DNA from: Demequina activiva
Lineage (GTDB): Bacteria > Actinomycetota > Actinomycetes > Actinomycetales > Demequinaceae
Reading direction: 5' to 3'
DNA: 64,000 nt
NCBI RefSeq assembly: GCF_016862815.1
Contig: NZ_BONR01000001.1
Location: 186,001 to 250,000, forward strand
Shown here: piece after piece, positions 1 to 28,439 of the stretch
How positions within the stretch are numbered: position 1 is the first letter of the stretch
How the letters are laid out: the number at the start of each line of letters is the position of its first letter
Program-made: the position numbers and the translations under genes
The notes under the pieces: model-generated
The model's database searches: none
The model's input: only the letters and a program-made list of their open reading frames with translations
What the model was told of the DNA's origin: nothing

Positions 1-471
1 CCCGAGTACGTCGACGAGATGGGCGCCCGCATCGTGGGCATCGAGCCCGGCGCCGGCCTGACGACCGCGACCCAGAACGCGATCGACACGTACGAGCTGT
101 CGGACTACGAGTTCCTGACCTCGTCGACCCCCGCGATGCTCTCGGAGCTCGACACCGCCACCTCGAACGGCGAGAACATCATCGTCACGCTGTGGGAGCC
201 CCACTGGGCCTACGGCGCCTACGACATCAAGAACCTCGAGGACCCCGAGGGTGTCATGGGTGAGGCCGAGGAGATCGTGACCTACGGTCGCACCGGCATC
301 TCCGAGGACTTCCCTGAGGTCGCCGAGTGGCTCGGCAACTTCACGATGGACGCCGAGGCGCTCTACGACCTCGAGAACCAGCTCAACGGCGCGGACTCCA
401 GCGACTACGAGCAGATCGTGGCCGACTGGGTCGCCGCCAACCAGGAGTGGGTCGACTCGCTCACCGCGTAA
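1..471 (+). CDS. Glycine betaine ABC transporter substrate-binding protein, C-terminal part
   Basis: This is the 3' part of a binding protein for glycine betaine or a related osmolyte. It is open at the left edge, so the signal peptide and first lobe lie outside the window. The 156 visible residues read as an OpuAC-type domain: a conserved IIVTLWEPHWAYGAYDIKNLED stretch (written here only as WEPHW at about residue 66 of the visible part) supplies aromatic residues of the kind that form the cage for the quaternary ammonium group. The end has the usual helical tail with VADWVAANQEWVD. It differs from the second osmolyte-binding protein in this window (27423-28424), which belongs to the OpuCC/OsmF branch. 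The transporter's permease and ATPase are presumably upstream. A strong hairpin follows the stop. Confidence 0.88.
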   Translation, partial: PEYVDEMGARIVGIEPGAGLTTATQNAIDTYELSDYEFLTSSTPAMLSELDTATSNGENIIVTLWEPHWAYGAYDIKNLEDPEGVMGEAEEIVTYGRTGISEDFPEVAEWLGNFTMDAEALYDLENQLNGADSSDYEQIVADWVAANQEWVDSLTA

Positions 472-24282: not shown

Positions 24283-25050
24283 ATGCTCGCAGCGCTCACC
24301 GGAGCCGGTCTCTCGGCAGCGGCAGGCCTCAACGCCTTCATCCCGCTGGTCCTCGTGGGAGTGTTCGCGCGCTTCACCGAGTTCATCCAGCTGCCCGAGC
24401 ACCTCGAATGGCTCCAGTCCTGGCCCGCGATCATCATCTCGCTCGCGCTCCTGGTCGCGGAGCTGATCCTGGACAAGATCCCCGGCGTCGACCACGTCAA
24501 CGACCTGATCCAGACCATGGTCAGGCCGCTCGTCGGCGGCGTGATCTTCGCCGCCACCGCCGCGTCGACCGTGGTGGACGAGTCGAACTTCTGGCAGGAC
24601 AACCCGCTGATCGCGGGGCTCGTGGGCGCCGTCGTGGCGCTCACCACGCACATCTCCAAGGCCGCCTCGCGGCCCGCGATCAATGCGACGACGGGTGGCA
24701 CCGGTGCTCCCCTGGCGTCCTTCGCGGAGGACGCGATCGCCGTCGCCCTGTGCCTCATCGCGATCTTCGTGCCCATCCTCGTGATCGGCGTGTTCATCTT
24801 CATCGGGATCGCGGTCTACCGCATCGTCACCACCGGCCGCCGGCGGCGTCGCCATCGCGAGATGCGCCAAGCGGAGGAACGTCTCGAGCGCGAGGCCCAG
24901 GAAGCCGAGGGCGGCATGGTCGCGTGGTGGCGCTCGAAGTGGCGCGAGCCGCGCCGGCTCTCACGCGGCCGCGCCACCGATGCTCCCGGCGCGGACAGCG
25001 CAGACAGCGCGGAGGCCGCCGACGGGCGGGACGCTCCCCCTAGTCGTTGA
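24283..25050 (+). CDS. DUF4126-type integral membrane protein
   Basis: This 255-residue protein has about five membrane spans in its first 190 residues (LSAAAGLNAFIPLVLVGVFARF, AIIISLALLVAELILDKIPG, LVGGVIFAATAAS, LIAGLVGAVVALTTH, and a long pair at 150-185). The DKIPGVDHVND and THISKAASRPAIN elements are the family hallmarks. A highly charged arginine/glutamate tail follows. The start is the ATG preceded by GGAGG at 24273-24277. Its 3' end overlaps the stop region of the convergent osmoprotectant ATPase gene by 11 bp. Function unknown. Confidence 0.8.
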   Translation: MLAALTGAGLSAAAGLNAFIPLVLVGVFARFTEFIQLPEHLEWLQSWPAIIISLALLVAELILDKIPGVDHVNDLIQTMVRPLVGGVIFAATAASTVVDESNFWQDNPLIAGLVGAVVALTTHISKAASRPAINATTGGTGAPLASFAEDAIAVALCLIAIFVPILVIGVFIFIGIAVYRIVTTGRRRRRHREMRQAEERLEREAQEAEGGMVAWWRSKWREPRRLSRGRATDAPGADSADSAEAADGRDAPPSR

Positions 25051-25792
25051 GCGCGCCGAAGTCCGCGAGGAAGTCCTCGACGAACGCGTTCGCCGGAGAC
25101 TGAGCGACCTCCTCCGACGAGCCCAGCTGCTCGAGCGTGCCGCCCTCCGAGAACACCGCGATGCGATCCGCGAGGATGACCGCCTCGCGAATGTCGTGCG
25201 TCACCATCATCACCGTGAGCCCCAGCGACCGCTGAAGGTCACGGAACTCCTGCTGCAGGCTGCGACGGCGCTGCGGATCGACGGCGCCGAACGGCTCGTC
25301 CATGAGCAGCACCGGAGGCTCGACCGCGAGCGCGCGGGCCACGCCCACGCGCTGACGCTCTCCGCCGGACAGCTCATGCGGGTAGCGGTCGCCGTACGTC
25401 TCCTGCGGAAGCCCCACGAGCGCCAGCAGCTCCTCGACACGCGCGGCCGTGCGGTCCTTCTCCCACTTCAGCAGCCCGGGAACGGTCGCGACGTTCTGGG
25501 CGACGGTGCGGTGAGGGAACAGGCCTACGTGCTGGATGACGTAGCCGATCGAGCGCCGCAGCTCCACGACGTCCTGAGCCATCACATCGGCCCCATCCAC
25601 GGTGATGGTGCCGGACGTGGGCTCGACCAGTCGGTTCACCATGCGCAGGGTGGTGGACTTCCCGCAGCCCGAGGGGCCCACGAGGCACAGAATCTCCCCC
25701 GGCGTCACCTCGAGGGACAGGTCCTCGACGGCGACCGTGCCGTCCGGGTACTCCTTGCGCACGTGGTCGAACGTGATGCCGGCGTGGTCCAT
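25040..25792 (-). CDS. Osmoprotectant ABC transporter ATPase (OpuCA/OpuBA type)
   Basis: The 250-residue ATPase energises import of glycine betaine, choline or related osmolytes. Walker A is GPSGCGKST (39-47), the signature ELSGGERQRVGVARAL is near 140-155, and LMDEPFGAVDP and VTHDIREAV follow. The QHVGLFPHRTVAQNV Q-loop is characteristic of the ProV/OpuCA branch. Unlike longer ProV proteins, it ends without a CBS pair, so the c-di-AMP/ionic sensing module of OpuCA is absent. It is divergent from the two permease genes, each strand having its own leaderless promoter. Confidence 0.93.
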   Translation of the reverse strand: MDHAGITFDHVRKEYPDGTVAVEDLSLEVTPGEILCLVGPSGCGKSTTLRMVNRLVEPTSGTITVDGADVMAQDVVELRRSIGYVIQHVGLFPHRTVAQNVATVPGLLKWEKDRTAARVEELLALVGLPQETYGDRYPHELSGGERQRVGVARALAVEPPVLLMDEPFGAVDPQRRRSLQQEFRDLQRSLGLTVMMVTHDIREAVILADRIAVFSEGGTLEQLGSSEEVAQSPANAFVEDFLADFGALND

Positions 25793-25804: not shown

Positions 25805-25867
25805 CCCTGGACCCTCCGTCCGGCCCCAGTGCCGCTCGCGATGCTCGCGCAGGCGGCGCGATCCCTG

Positions 25868-25873
25868 TAGCGT
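25868..25873 (+). promoter_or_regulatory. -10 box of a leaderless promoter (osmoprotectant permease)
   Basis: TAGCGT followed by 7 nt and the ATG at 25881. Confidence 0.55.
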
Positions 25874-25880
25874 CGGGCAG

Positions 25881-26546
25881 ATGGACGCGCCGGAGAACCC
25901 GTGGTTCTCGCTCGACTACCTCGAGCGCAACTGGGAGGAGGTGTCGAGTCAGCTCGTCATCCACACCACGCTCACCCTTCAGGCCCTCCTGATCGCGTTC
26001 GCCATCGCCTTCCCGCTCGCGGTGATCGCGCGTCGCATCCCGCGACTGTCCGGACCCATCATGGGCGTGAGCGGCGTGCTGTACACGATCCCCTCCTTCG
26101 CGCTGTTCGGGCTGCTGGCACCCTTCACGGGCATCGGCCGCACCACCGTGCTGATCGGACTCGTCGCCTATGCGCTGCTGGTGCTGGTGCGCAACATCGT
26201 GGTGGGCCTCCAGGGAGTCGACCGCGATGTGACCGATGCCGCGCGCGGACTGGGATACACGCCCACCCGCCTGCTGCTGCAGGTCGAGCTGCCCAACGCG
26301 CTGCCCTCGATCATCGCCGGCCTGCGCATCGCGGCGGTCAGCACGGTCGCCCTGGTCACCGTGGGCGTGGTGGTGGGCTACGGCGGTCTGGGGCAGCTGA
26401 TGTTCCGCGGGCTGCAGTCGGACTACCGTGCCCAGATCATGACCGCCACCATCCTGTGCCTGGTGCTCGCGCTGGTGCTTGACCTGATGCTCGCCCTCAC
26501 CGGCCGGCTCGCGATGCCGTGGGCACGCAGGAGGGCGGTCGCATGA
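25881..26546 (+). CDS. Osmoprotectant ABC transporter permease (OpuCB-like), first
   Basis: The 221-residue permease of the BPD_transp_1 family has about six membrane spans. GVLYTIPSFALFGLLAPFTGIG near residue 60-80 and the EAA-loop-type segment DAARGLGYTPTRLLLQVELPNALPSIIAGLR (DAARGLGYTPTRLL through ALPSIIAGLR, near 118-148) match OpuCB/OpuCD. The ATG at 25881 is fixed by a leaderless -10 box. The stop overlaps the next permease start (ATGA). The two permeases form the heterodimeric channel for the ATPase encoded on the other strand. Confidence 0.93.
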   Translation: MDAPENPWFSLDYLERNWEEVSSQLVIHTTLTLQALLIAFAIAFPLAVIARRIPRLSGPIMGVSGVLYTIPSFALFGLLAPFTGIGRTTVLIGLVAYALLVLVRNIVVGLQGVDRDVTDAARGLGYTPTRLLLQVELPNALPSIIAGLRIAAVSTVALVTVGVVVGYGGLGQLMFRGLQSDYRAQIMTATILCLVLALVLDLMLALTGRLAMPWARRRAVA

Positions 26547-27274
26547 GCACCATCACGGATGCGTGGGACTACCTCACCACGTGGACCAACTGGACCGGCG
26601 CCAACGGGATCACCACGCCCACCTTCGACGGCGGCTGGCGCTTCGCGCAGGACTCGATCATCGCGCTCACGCTGGAGCACCTGTGGATGAGCTTCGCCGC
26701 CGTGGCGCTCGCGGTGATCGTCGCGCTCCCTCTGGGGGTCTACCTCGGCCACGTGCGCAAGGGCGGCAGCGCCACCGTCGTGGTCTCCAACGTCACGCGC
26801 GCCATGCCCACGCTCGCACTCCTGACCCTGTTCGCCGCTTCGGCCATCGGCTTCGGCAACCAGGCGGTCATCCTCGCGGCGGCGATCTTCGCCTTCCCGC
26901 CCATCCTCACCAACGCCTTCACCGGCATGGCGGACGTGGATCCCGACATTCGAGAGGCGGCGCTGGGCCAGGGCCTCACGCGCTTCCAGGTGGCGACCCG
27001 CGTCGAGCTTCCGCTCGCCATCCCCCTCATCGCTGCGGGCCTGCGCACGGCGACGGTGCAGACCGTCGCGACCGTGCCGCTGGCCGCCCTGGTGGCCGGG
27101 GGCGGGCTGGGAGTCATCATCAACCGGGGCCTCGCGACTCAGCGCTATGGCGAGGTGCTGGCGGGAGCGGTGCTCGTGGGCACCCTCGCGCTGCTCACGG
27201 ACGCAGTGATGTCACGACTCCAGCGAGCCGTCACTCCCGCCCCCTTGCGCGAGGCGGCCGCCAGCGCCGTCTGA
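26543..27274 (+). CDS. Osmoprotectant ABC transporter permease (OpuCD-like), second
   Basis: The 243-residue permease has VTRAMPTLALLTLFAASAIGFG near 85-107 and EAALGQGLTRFQVATRVELPLAIPLIAAG near 143-170 (EAA loop). About six membrane spans are present. Compared with its partner it has a longer N-terminus (WDYLTTWTNWTGANG...) before the first span. The start is preceded by AGGAGGG inside the previous gene and overlaps its stop by 4 bp. A 148-bp gap with a separate promoter-like element follows before the binding-protein gene. Confidence 0.93.
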   Translation: MSTITDAWDYLTTWTNWTGANGITTPTFDGGWRFAQDSIIALTLEHLWMSFAAVALAVIVALPLGVYLGHVRKGGSATVVVSNVTRAMPTLALLTLFAASAIGFGNQAVILAAAIFAFPPILTNAFTGMADVDPDIREAALGQGLTRFQVATRVELPLAIPLIAAGLRTATVQTVATVPLAALVAGGGLGVIINRGLATQRYGEVLAGAVLVGTLALLTDAVMSRLQRAVTPAPLREAAASAV

Positions 27275-27338: not shown

Positions 27339-27422
27339 TAGCCTGGTAGTCGGCACACCTGGGAAGAAACCGGGACGCGGGGTGGTTGCTCACCCTGACA
27401 GTCCCCGACACGAGGAGTCCTC
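27339..27422 (+). promoter_or_regulatory. Promoter and leader of the osmoprotectant-binding protein
   Basis: TAGCCT (27339-27344) followed by a leader of about 70 nt. The leader contains one clear small hairpin (gggtg-gttgct-caccc near 27380-27396) and ends in GAGGAG just before the ATG. I could not match it to a known riboswitch by eye. Confidence 0.4.
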
Positions 27423-28424
27423 ATGCGCACCCGTACCGCACCCCTCGCAGCGCTCGCCATCGCTGCCCTGACCCTGGCCGGCTGTAGCTCCGGCGACACC
27501 GACGCCGAGCCCTCGGACGGCGGCTCGATGGAGCCCACAGGCGCCACCACGGAGTCCGCCATGGCGCAGGAGTGCCTGCCGGTGCCCGGCGAGCAGCTCG
27601 TGGTCCTCGAGGACGACATGCAGCTGCAGAACTCGGACAACATCATCCCCGCGCTCAACGCGGACGCCGCAAGCGAGGACGTCCTCGCGGCCCTCGACGC
27701 CGTCTCCTCTGCGCTGGACACGGAGATGCTGATCGAGCTCAACAACCAGGTCGACGTCCAGCGCCGCACCTCGCAGGAGGTCGCTCAGGAGTGGGTGGAG
27801 CAGGCGGGCATCTCCGTCGAGGCGACCGGCTCGGGCGACCTCACCATCGGCGCCGCGAACTTCACCGAGAACATCACGCTCGCGGAGATCTACGCGGATG
27901 TGCTCGAGCAGGCCGGCTACAGCACCGAGGTGCGCGAGATCGGCAACCGCGAGACCTACCTCCCGGCGCTCGAGTCCGGCGAGATCGACATCGTGCCGGA
28001 GTACGCGGCGACGTTCGCCGAGTTCCTCGACGGCGACGTGGACAATGTGGTCGCCTCGGGAGACATCGCGGAGACCGTCGCGGCCCTCGAGCCGCTGGCT
28101 GAGGAGCGTGGCCTGGCGGTGGGCGCGGCTGCCTCCGCTCAGGACCAGAACGCCTTCGCCACCACGCAGGGCTTCGTCGACCAGTACGGCGTGACCTCGC
28201 TGAGCGAGCTCGCCGAGTCCTGCGAGGGCATCGTGCTGGGCGGTCCCCCGGAGTGCCCCGAGCGTCCGTTCTGCCAGCCGGGACTCGAGAGCACCTACGG
28301 CATCGAGGTCGCGGAGTTCCGCTCGCTCGACGCCGGCGGCCCGCTGACCAAGACCGCCATCACCACCGGTGAGGTCGCGGTGGGCCTGGTGTTCTCGTCG
28401 GACGGCGCTCTCGCCACCAGCTGA
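27423..28424 (+). CDS. Osmoprotectant-binding lipoprotein, circularly permuted OpuCC/OsmF domain
   Basis: The 333-residue lipoprotein has lipobox LAGC (Cys21) and is the binding component for the preceding permeases. Its domain order is unusual. Residues 59-129 (LVVLEDD ... LIELNNQVDV ... AQEWVEQAG) correspond to the C-terminal end of normal OpuCC/OsmF proteins. Residues 139-333 (DLTIGAANFTENITLAEIYA ... EIDIVPEYAA ... GEVAVGLVFSSDGALATS) correspond to the normal N-terminal and middle parts. The protein stops where the standard protein would continue into LVVLEDD. It is thus a circular permutation joined by a short linker (130-138). GAGGAG supports the start; a strong terminator follows. Four cysteines (51, and three around CEGIVLGGPPECPERPFC) may form disulfides. 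Confidence 0.9.
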   Translation: MRTRTAPLAALAIAALTLAGCSSGDTDAEPSDGGSMEPTGATTESAMAQECLPVPGEQLVVLEDDMQLQNSDNIIPALNADAASEDVLAALDAVSSALDTEMLIELNNQVDVQRRTSQEVAQEWVEQAGISVEATGSGDLTIGAANFTENITLAEIYADVLEQAGYSTEVREIGNRETYLPALESGEIDIVPEYAATFAEFLDGDVDNVVASGDIAETVAALEPLAEERGLAVGAAASAQDQNAFATTQGFVDQYGVTSLSELAESCEGIVLGGPPECPERPFCQPGLESTYGIEVAEFRSLDAGGPLTKTAITTGEVAVGLVFSSDGALATS

Positions 28425-28439
28425 CGATCCTGCACGCAC

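Follow-up and report, generated by a model that had tools for sequence, protein, structure and literature searches.

The window analysed here is a stretch of 64,000 nucleotides of the Demequina activiva contig NZ_BONR01000001.1 (positions 186,001 to 250,000 of the forward strand), and positions are counted from its first letter. At 27423..28424, the span correctly given in a preliminary description of the sequence, lies a gene for a substrate-binding lipoprotein (SBP) of the OpuAC family with a permuted chain, which is preceded by genes for an ATPase and two permeases. Proteins with the same cut as this one are referred to as the 198/199 type. The features of the locus are as follows:

25040..25792, minus strand: ABC transporter ATPase, ProV/OpuCA-like, 250 residues (profile matches; divergent, with no CBS-domain match)
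25881..26546, plus strand: permease 1, BPD_transp_1 (the start codon was picked by eye; searched as 25860-26546)
26543..27274, plus strand: permease 2, BPD_transp_1 (profile matches)
27423..28424, plus strand: permuted OpuAC-family substrate-binding lipoprotein, 333 residues (ORF translation, Pfam, ProX, doubled profile)
27423..27485, plus strand: lipoprotein signal peptide with lipobox LAGC and Cys21 (read from the translation)
27573..27575, plus strand: Cys51, directly ahead of the moved segment (220 of 220 distinct 198/199-type proteins have a Cys no more than 14 residues ahead of it)
27597..27812, plus strand: moved segment A, residues 59-130, corresponding to the C-terminal quarter of ProX/OpuCC (Pfam, ProX, doubled profile)
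27813..27836, plus strand: short linker between the former C- and N-termini, residues 131-138
27837..28421, plus strand: segment B, residues 139-333, corresponding to the first three quarters of ProX/OpuCC and ending VFSSDGALATS (Pfam, ProX, doubled profile)
28221..28223, plus strand: Cys267 of lobe II, predicted to pair with Cys51 (invariant in 66 of 66 and 220 of 220; DSSP)
28254..28274, plus strand: Cys278 and Cys284, a second pair, common to many standard-order relatives (co-occurrence in 575 of 575 rows)

The motif GAGGAG is found 5 bases upstream of the ATG of the 333-residue gene, while promoter and terminator scans returned nothing. A lipobox-like motif stands ahead of the domain in 263 of 266 rows of the 198/199 type. 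The gene is under constraint in both segments, as indicated by pN/pS values of 0.27-0.51 against five relatives. An antisense ORF (27390-28439) overlaps it and is taken as a by-product of high G+C.

Standard-order members of the family carry segment B followed by segment A, whereas the Demequina protein carries A followed by B. In the Pfam OpuAC profile (PF04069), residues 139-331 match positions 2-184 and the upstream stretch matches positions 187-257, the latter reaching E 2.0e-10 when searched alone; the whole-protein score of 136 bits exceeds the gathering cut-off of 21.2 bits and places the protein in the family. The same inversion is observed against Archaeoglobus fulgidus ProX (1sw1), in which query residues 139-318 map to chain positions 7-184 and residues 59-130 to positions 201-273, the shorter piece scoring 19.1 bits (E 0.006) by itself. 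These independent Pfam and ProX matches speak against an N-terminal domain of foreign origin, a reading that we rejected. Additionally, a standard-order profile of 15 sequences and 272 positions was written twice end to end, and on this doubled profile the Demequina protein is matched in a single stretch (model 199-470 of 2 x 272, 317.6 bits), which amounts to one full circle, cut at 198/199, with nothing missing or doubled. A second copy of segment A was not found; each of the 162 ORFs in which copies were counted, the Demequina gene included, gave one A and one B match at cut-offs of 15 and 25 bits, with some genes occurring more than once among these ORFs. As a control, 41 of 42 matching ORFs from 40 further loci mapped in standard order, called when the start lay at most 13 positions from the standard start and the end at most 5 from the standard end, and the 42nd gave a weak gapped match of 55.8 bits. 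Beyond Actinomycetota the mapping was applied to Escherichia coli OsmF only, which is in standard order. The order counts given below rest on profile classing, as in many rows motif patterns failed to pick up one segment or both. The preliminary description had proposed that the C-terminal segment comes first and had tied residues 59-129 to the C-terminal part of OpuAC; both proposals hold, no second copy of the segment follows residue 333, and the breakpoint that it assigned is supported.

The 198/199 type is not an oddity of one genome. A homologue search returned 5014 proteins at E <= 0.001, and among the best 120 of these all 119 besides the query shared the segment order; the named species among these best 120 are Demequina almost throughout. 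A match through both segments was found in 39 of 297 sampled genomes of the order and in 23 of 23 genomes of the genus Demequina, the source genome counted. Within the family of the sampled genome G144, a hand count of the table gave a strong match in 155 of 221 genomes (best E <= 2e-67), weak matches alone in 40 (E about 7e-21 or worse) and none in 26. Of 80 named loci kept from 263 confirmed ones, 78 class as the 198/199 type and the gene is cut by a contig end in the other two; the genera include Cellulomonas, Promicromonospora, Actinotalea, Oerskovia, Luteimicrobium, Isoptericola, Georgenia and others. Three genes (L037, L090 and L092), inside which the contigs end, were mis-classed and are taken as truncated 198/199-type genes.

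Other members of the family in Actinomycetota are cut elsewhere. A profile built across the permuted junction served to search 396 genomes of the phylum, and the resulting counts are lower bounds: the 198/199 type occurs in at least two genomes (G000 and G694), a cut at 131/132 of 272 in at least 12 (one gene being truncated) and a cut at 163/164 of 272 in at least two, one of which gave a 100% match named Iamia majanohamensis. The 131/132 and 163/164 cuts are sharply defined on the doubled profile. Among the 120 matches listed for a 131/132-type query, 118 were of the same type and two were long forms, and the 132-row tally of this type contains one contig-end-truncated 198/199-type row; among the 120 listed for a 163/164-type query, 118 were of the same type, with one partial and, again, one long form. 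Nine of 361 database proteins fell outside the classes at first; six were re-classed, and P0139, P0140 and P0280 (partial) remain. One gene (L172) is truncated at its start, and the second ORF of L200 has an odd span. Two proteins with a span from 183/184 to 162, about 20 unmatched positions, scores of 122-123 bits and a very long branch (L179:2615-3595 and L180:4758-5777) possibly form a divergent permuted-looking group near 163 that reflects a further event, and they are not counted as a separate cut site. The 131/132 type is present in 6 of 24 genomes of the class of G525, with G525 and G551 also carrying a standard-order copy, and in the class of G858 a permuted form is present in 5 of 198 genomes and any match in 60 of 198; permutation is thus patchy among near relatives.

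Permutation by duplication predicts half-finished forms (PMC3320104), and two of the 361 database proteins extend over 1.5 circles. P0140 runs from 1 to 272 and on to 131, its two copies being 73% identical and all three parts nearest the 131/132 type, while P0139 runs from 132/133 to 272 and then from 1 to 272, with parts nearest two groups, the 131/132 type and the standard-order L181 (longest contig 1531 bases). Both fit the duplication model and may be duplication intermediates or assembly chimaeras. The simplest route to the 198/199 type would be a tandem duplication after which the outer parts were lost. The best-surviving alternative is cut and paste, in which an N-terminal segment from a second paralogue or gene fragment was fused before a truncated protein by fission and fusion. 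P0139, which joins a 131/132-like part to standard L181-like parts, suggests that paralogues may be joined in the family, unless it is an assembly chimaera, and no 1.5-length form at the 198/199 cut was seen among the 361 database proteins, nor any 1.5-length form in the 40 further control loci. However, the doubled-profile rows close the circle almost or quite exactly at the cut, neither leaving much of a gap nor overlapping much, although some carry a spurious N-terminal extension and a contig end truncates L037 and L090, and we consider cut and paste unlikely, though a serious contender. Since both routes yield the same permuted protein, this alternative bears on the route alone. Separately, one genome carries two adjoining standard-order binding-protein ORFs (L222:67-993 and 974-1966), a tandem pair of the kind able to yield a permutant.

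The SBP gene lies together with genes for an ATPase and two permeases, the gene set of an OpuC/OsmU-type importer. This set, with the SBP gene last, is found at 82 of 88 flanked 198/199-type loci (gene strings of 63 and 19); among the remaining six, one has an extra ATPase and five differ or are without some part within the fetched stretch. Standard-order relatives have the same gene set at 12 of 12 loci in the first set (L042-L053). The 333-residue protein most likely serves an OpuC-type importer as its receptor, and its family would suggest a quaternary amine or similar small solute as the substrate. The NCBIfam OsmF equivalog (NF049931) is matched at 63.1 bits in two stretches, far below its 400-bit cut-off, and the protein falls outside that group; some positions of the ProX aromatic box are not aromatic in it. 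OpuCA/ProV ATPases carry C-terminal CBS domains, and osmosensing through such domains seems to be absent for the 250-residue ATPase. A ProX/OpuA-type binding protein that PF04069 matches linearly is encoded by an ORF (L001:1354-2274) that begins ahead of the window and has its 3' end at window positions 1-471, with a permease upstream, and the Demequina genome thus has two osmolyte importers inside about 28 kb. Elsewhere, the standard-order protein L181:4871-6025 has no matching ATPase or permease gene in the fetched 11 kb and may be an orphan binding protein.

Two genomes of the class of G858 encode a fusion (L225:4427-6505 and L226:3870-6152) of a 131/132-type OpuAC domain with a peptidoglycan-binding domain and a polysaccharide deacetylase, a predicted architecture in which the binding protein is made part of a cell-wall enzyme. 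By the same token, the Demequina protein might be folded and no longer serve transport, acting, for instance, as a sensor or cell-wall protein; however, the conserved position of its gene at the end of the ATPase, permease, permease, SBP cluster in those 82 loci renders this improbable, and a receptor for import is the reading that we retain.

The AlphaFold2 model of the 333-residue protein has a pLDDT of 89.0 and a pTM of 0.81, with pLDDT >=90 at 271 of 333 residues, nearly all at residue 51 or later, which supports the folded two-lobe product regarded as plausible in the preliminary description. For five models of the 131/132 type, pLDDT ranged from 63.8 to 85.2. As expected from permutation, the structure aligner matches ProX-like chains from 6 to 198 with model residues 138-332 and no further. 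A cut at the inter-lobe hinge would fit both the order of the elements and the aligned ranges.

Cys51 and Cys267 are present together in all 220 distinct 198/199-type proteins when any Cys in a stretch of 14 and 15 residues, respectively, is scored, and the pair is invariant in 66 of 66 proteins, which leaves no co-loss to be observed. A Cys in the 267 loop is present in 1 of 56 standard-order proteins, and in the first set the pair was found in 38 of 38 proteins of the 198/199 type versus 0 of 12 of standard order. DSSP, which does not specify partners, assigns residues 49-50 and 267-268 of the model to strand or bridge. A Cys51–Cys267 disulfide probably links the N-terminal strap with lobe II, taking over from the lost second crossing of the hinge. 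In 575 of 575 rows of the four classes, Cys278 and Cys284 either occur together or are both missing, and they thus probably pair with each other; both are present in 34 of 56 standard-order proteins.

Standard order is the arrangement of A. fulgidus ProX, Bacillus subtilis OpuBC, E. coli OsmF/YehZ and EgtUC (PF04069), the last quarter of which comes first in the Demequina protein. B. subtilis OpuAC (2b4l, 2b4m, 3chg) is permuted relative to ProX, as is the Demequina protein, and has been described with CPSARST as a natural circular permutant (PMC2395249). However, an OpuAC-type permutant is cut at the strand opening lobe II (131/132), whereas the Demequina protein is cut at 198/199, and the OpuAC alignment covers only model residues 48/51-265, the lobe I part (51-265) aligning with 3chg chain D from 63 to 272. 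It is the actinobacterial 131/132 cut that agrees with OpuAC. The alignment of 5nxy, titled OpuAC, is in standard order, with model 138-333 on 4-198, unlike the other OpuAC rows, and we suspect that the title is wrong and that the protein may be OpuCC. As to whether the form is already described, a question posed by the preliminary description, the answer is partial: permuted glycine-betaine-binding proteins are known (PMC2395249), but with a different cut in OpuAC. In the literature searched, which covered few subscription papers, we found neither the 198/199 cut nor its spread over many genera, nor the recurrence of permutation with several cut sites in one phylum, nor the cysteine pair. NCBI names the relatives glycine betaine ABC transporter substrate-binding protein, and the names shown make no mention of order. 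Permuted relations are common in structure comparisons, amounting to 17.6% of one SCOP set (PMC2395249). The Treponema pallidum protein TpMglB-2, a proposed Type Ic permuted sugar-binding lipoprotein whose permutation, its authors suggest, may be an adaptation to anchoring (PMC4990184), resembles the Demequina protein in being a permuted substrate-binding lipoprotein. In TpMglB-2, of the Type I sugar-binding family, permutation adds a hinge crossing, whereas the Demequina type should remove one.

The origins of the permuted forms were examined in a tree of 57 chosen rows rotated to standard order (105 rows in a quick version). The 198/199 type forms one clade (100/98) joined to a standard-order clade (100/99), and the 163/164 type also forms one clade (100/99), while the 131/132 type needs four order changes (three in the 105-row tree). 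The whole 57-row tree needs six order changes, of which at least five are forced by well-supported branches. Constraining all permuted rows to one clade costs 148 log-likelihood units (p-AU 0.000185), and constraining the 131/132 type gives p-AU 2.7e-5; a single origin of all permutants is rejected, and likewise a single origin of the 131/132 type. Because the root was not inferred, gains and reversals are indistinguishable in the tree; from the order of archaeal ProX and E. coli OsmF, we infer that standard order is ancestral. A single ancient actinobacterial permutation, with the three cut sites arising by later slippage and the standard forms by reversal, would account for the fact that all permutants found are in one phylum, the sole phylum surveyed. 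However, the rejected constraints, the forced order changes and the standard order of ProX and OsmF outside the phylum all speak against it, and we find it marginally less credible even than a role outside transport. As for an artefact, such as a frameshift, misassembly or wrong start with the normal C-terminus lost downstream, the high G+C and many overlapping ORFs might invite it, but it is ruled out for practical purposes by relatives sharing the order in 220 distinct sequences of many sources, the lack of a second segment and the constraint on both segments.

Repeated origins by permutation from standard order thus remain the preferred account of the family, and we are highly confident that the Demequina protein is a working, naturally permuted SBP lipoprotein of an OpuC/OsmU-type ABC importer, with a single origin and a probably re-tied hinge. 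According to this explanation, the 198/199 permutation arose once, from a standard-order ancestor in the actinobacteria, and further permutations of the family, at different sites, would have occurred in other lineages of actinobacteria. The old ends would be joined by the short linker and the chain opened at the second inter-lobe crossing, such that each lobe would be continuous, lobe I covering roughly residues 59-242 and lobe II roughly residues 243-333, with one crossing between them instead of two. The lipid anchor would lead into the hinge, with the Cys51–Cys267 disulfide substituting for the lost crossing as the lobes close.

A family in one phylum with standard order and at least three cut sites among close relatives in the same kind of operon is unusual to our knowledge. 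On balance we are evenly divided on the wider proposal that the OpuC/ProX family in Actinomycetota is a hot spot of permutation, with at least three cut sites, at least five order changes, one cut convergent with B. subtilis OpuAC and surviving 1.5-length intermediates, and that in the 198/199 type a new disulfide has replaced the lost hinge, altering the mechanics of the importer receptor and the pull of its lipid tether. With permuted proteins filed under plain database names, any alignment, model or tree built on linear order will misread them. Furthermore, natural cut sites mark tolerant places for biosensor building, and the scaffold is already used in nicotine and acetylcholine sensors, according to PDB titles. 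The family is a natural experiment in the rewiring of protein chains: since its relatives differ mainly in the place of their ends, the origin and cost of permutation are directly testable, and a disulfide that takes the place of a missing hinge would, if true, be a clear case of compensation.
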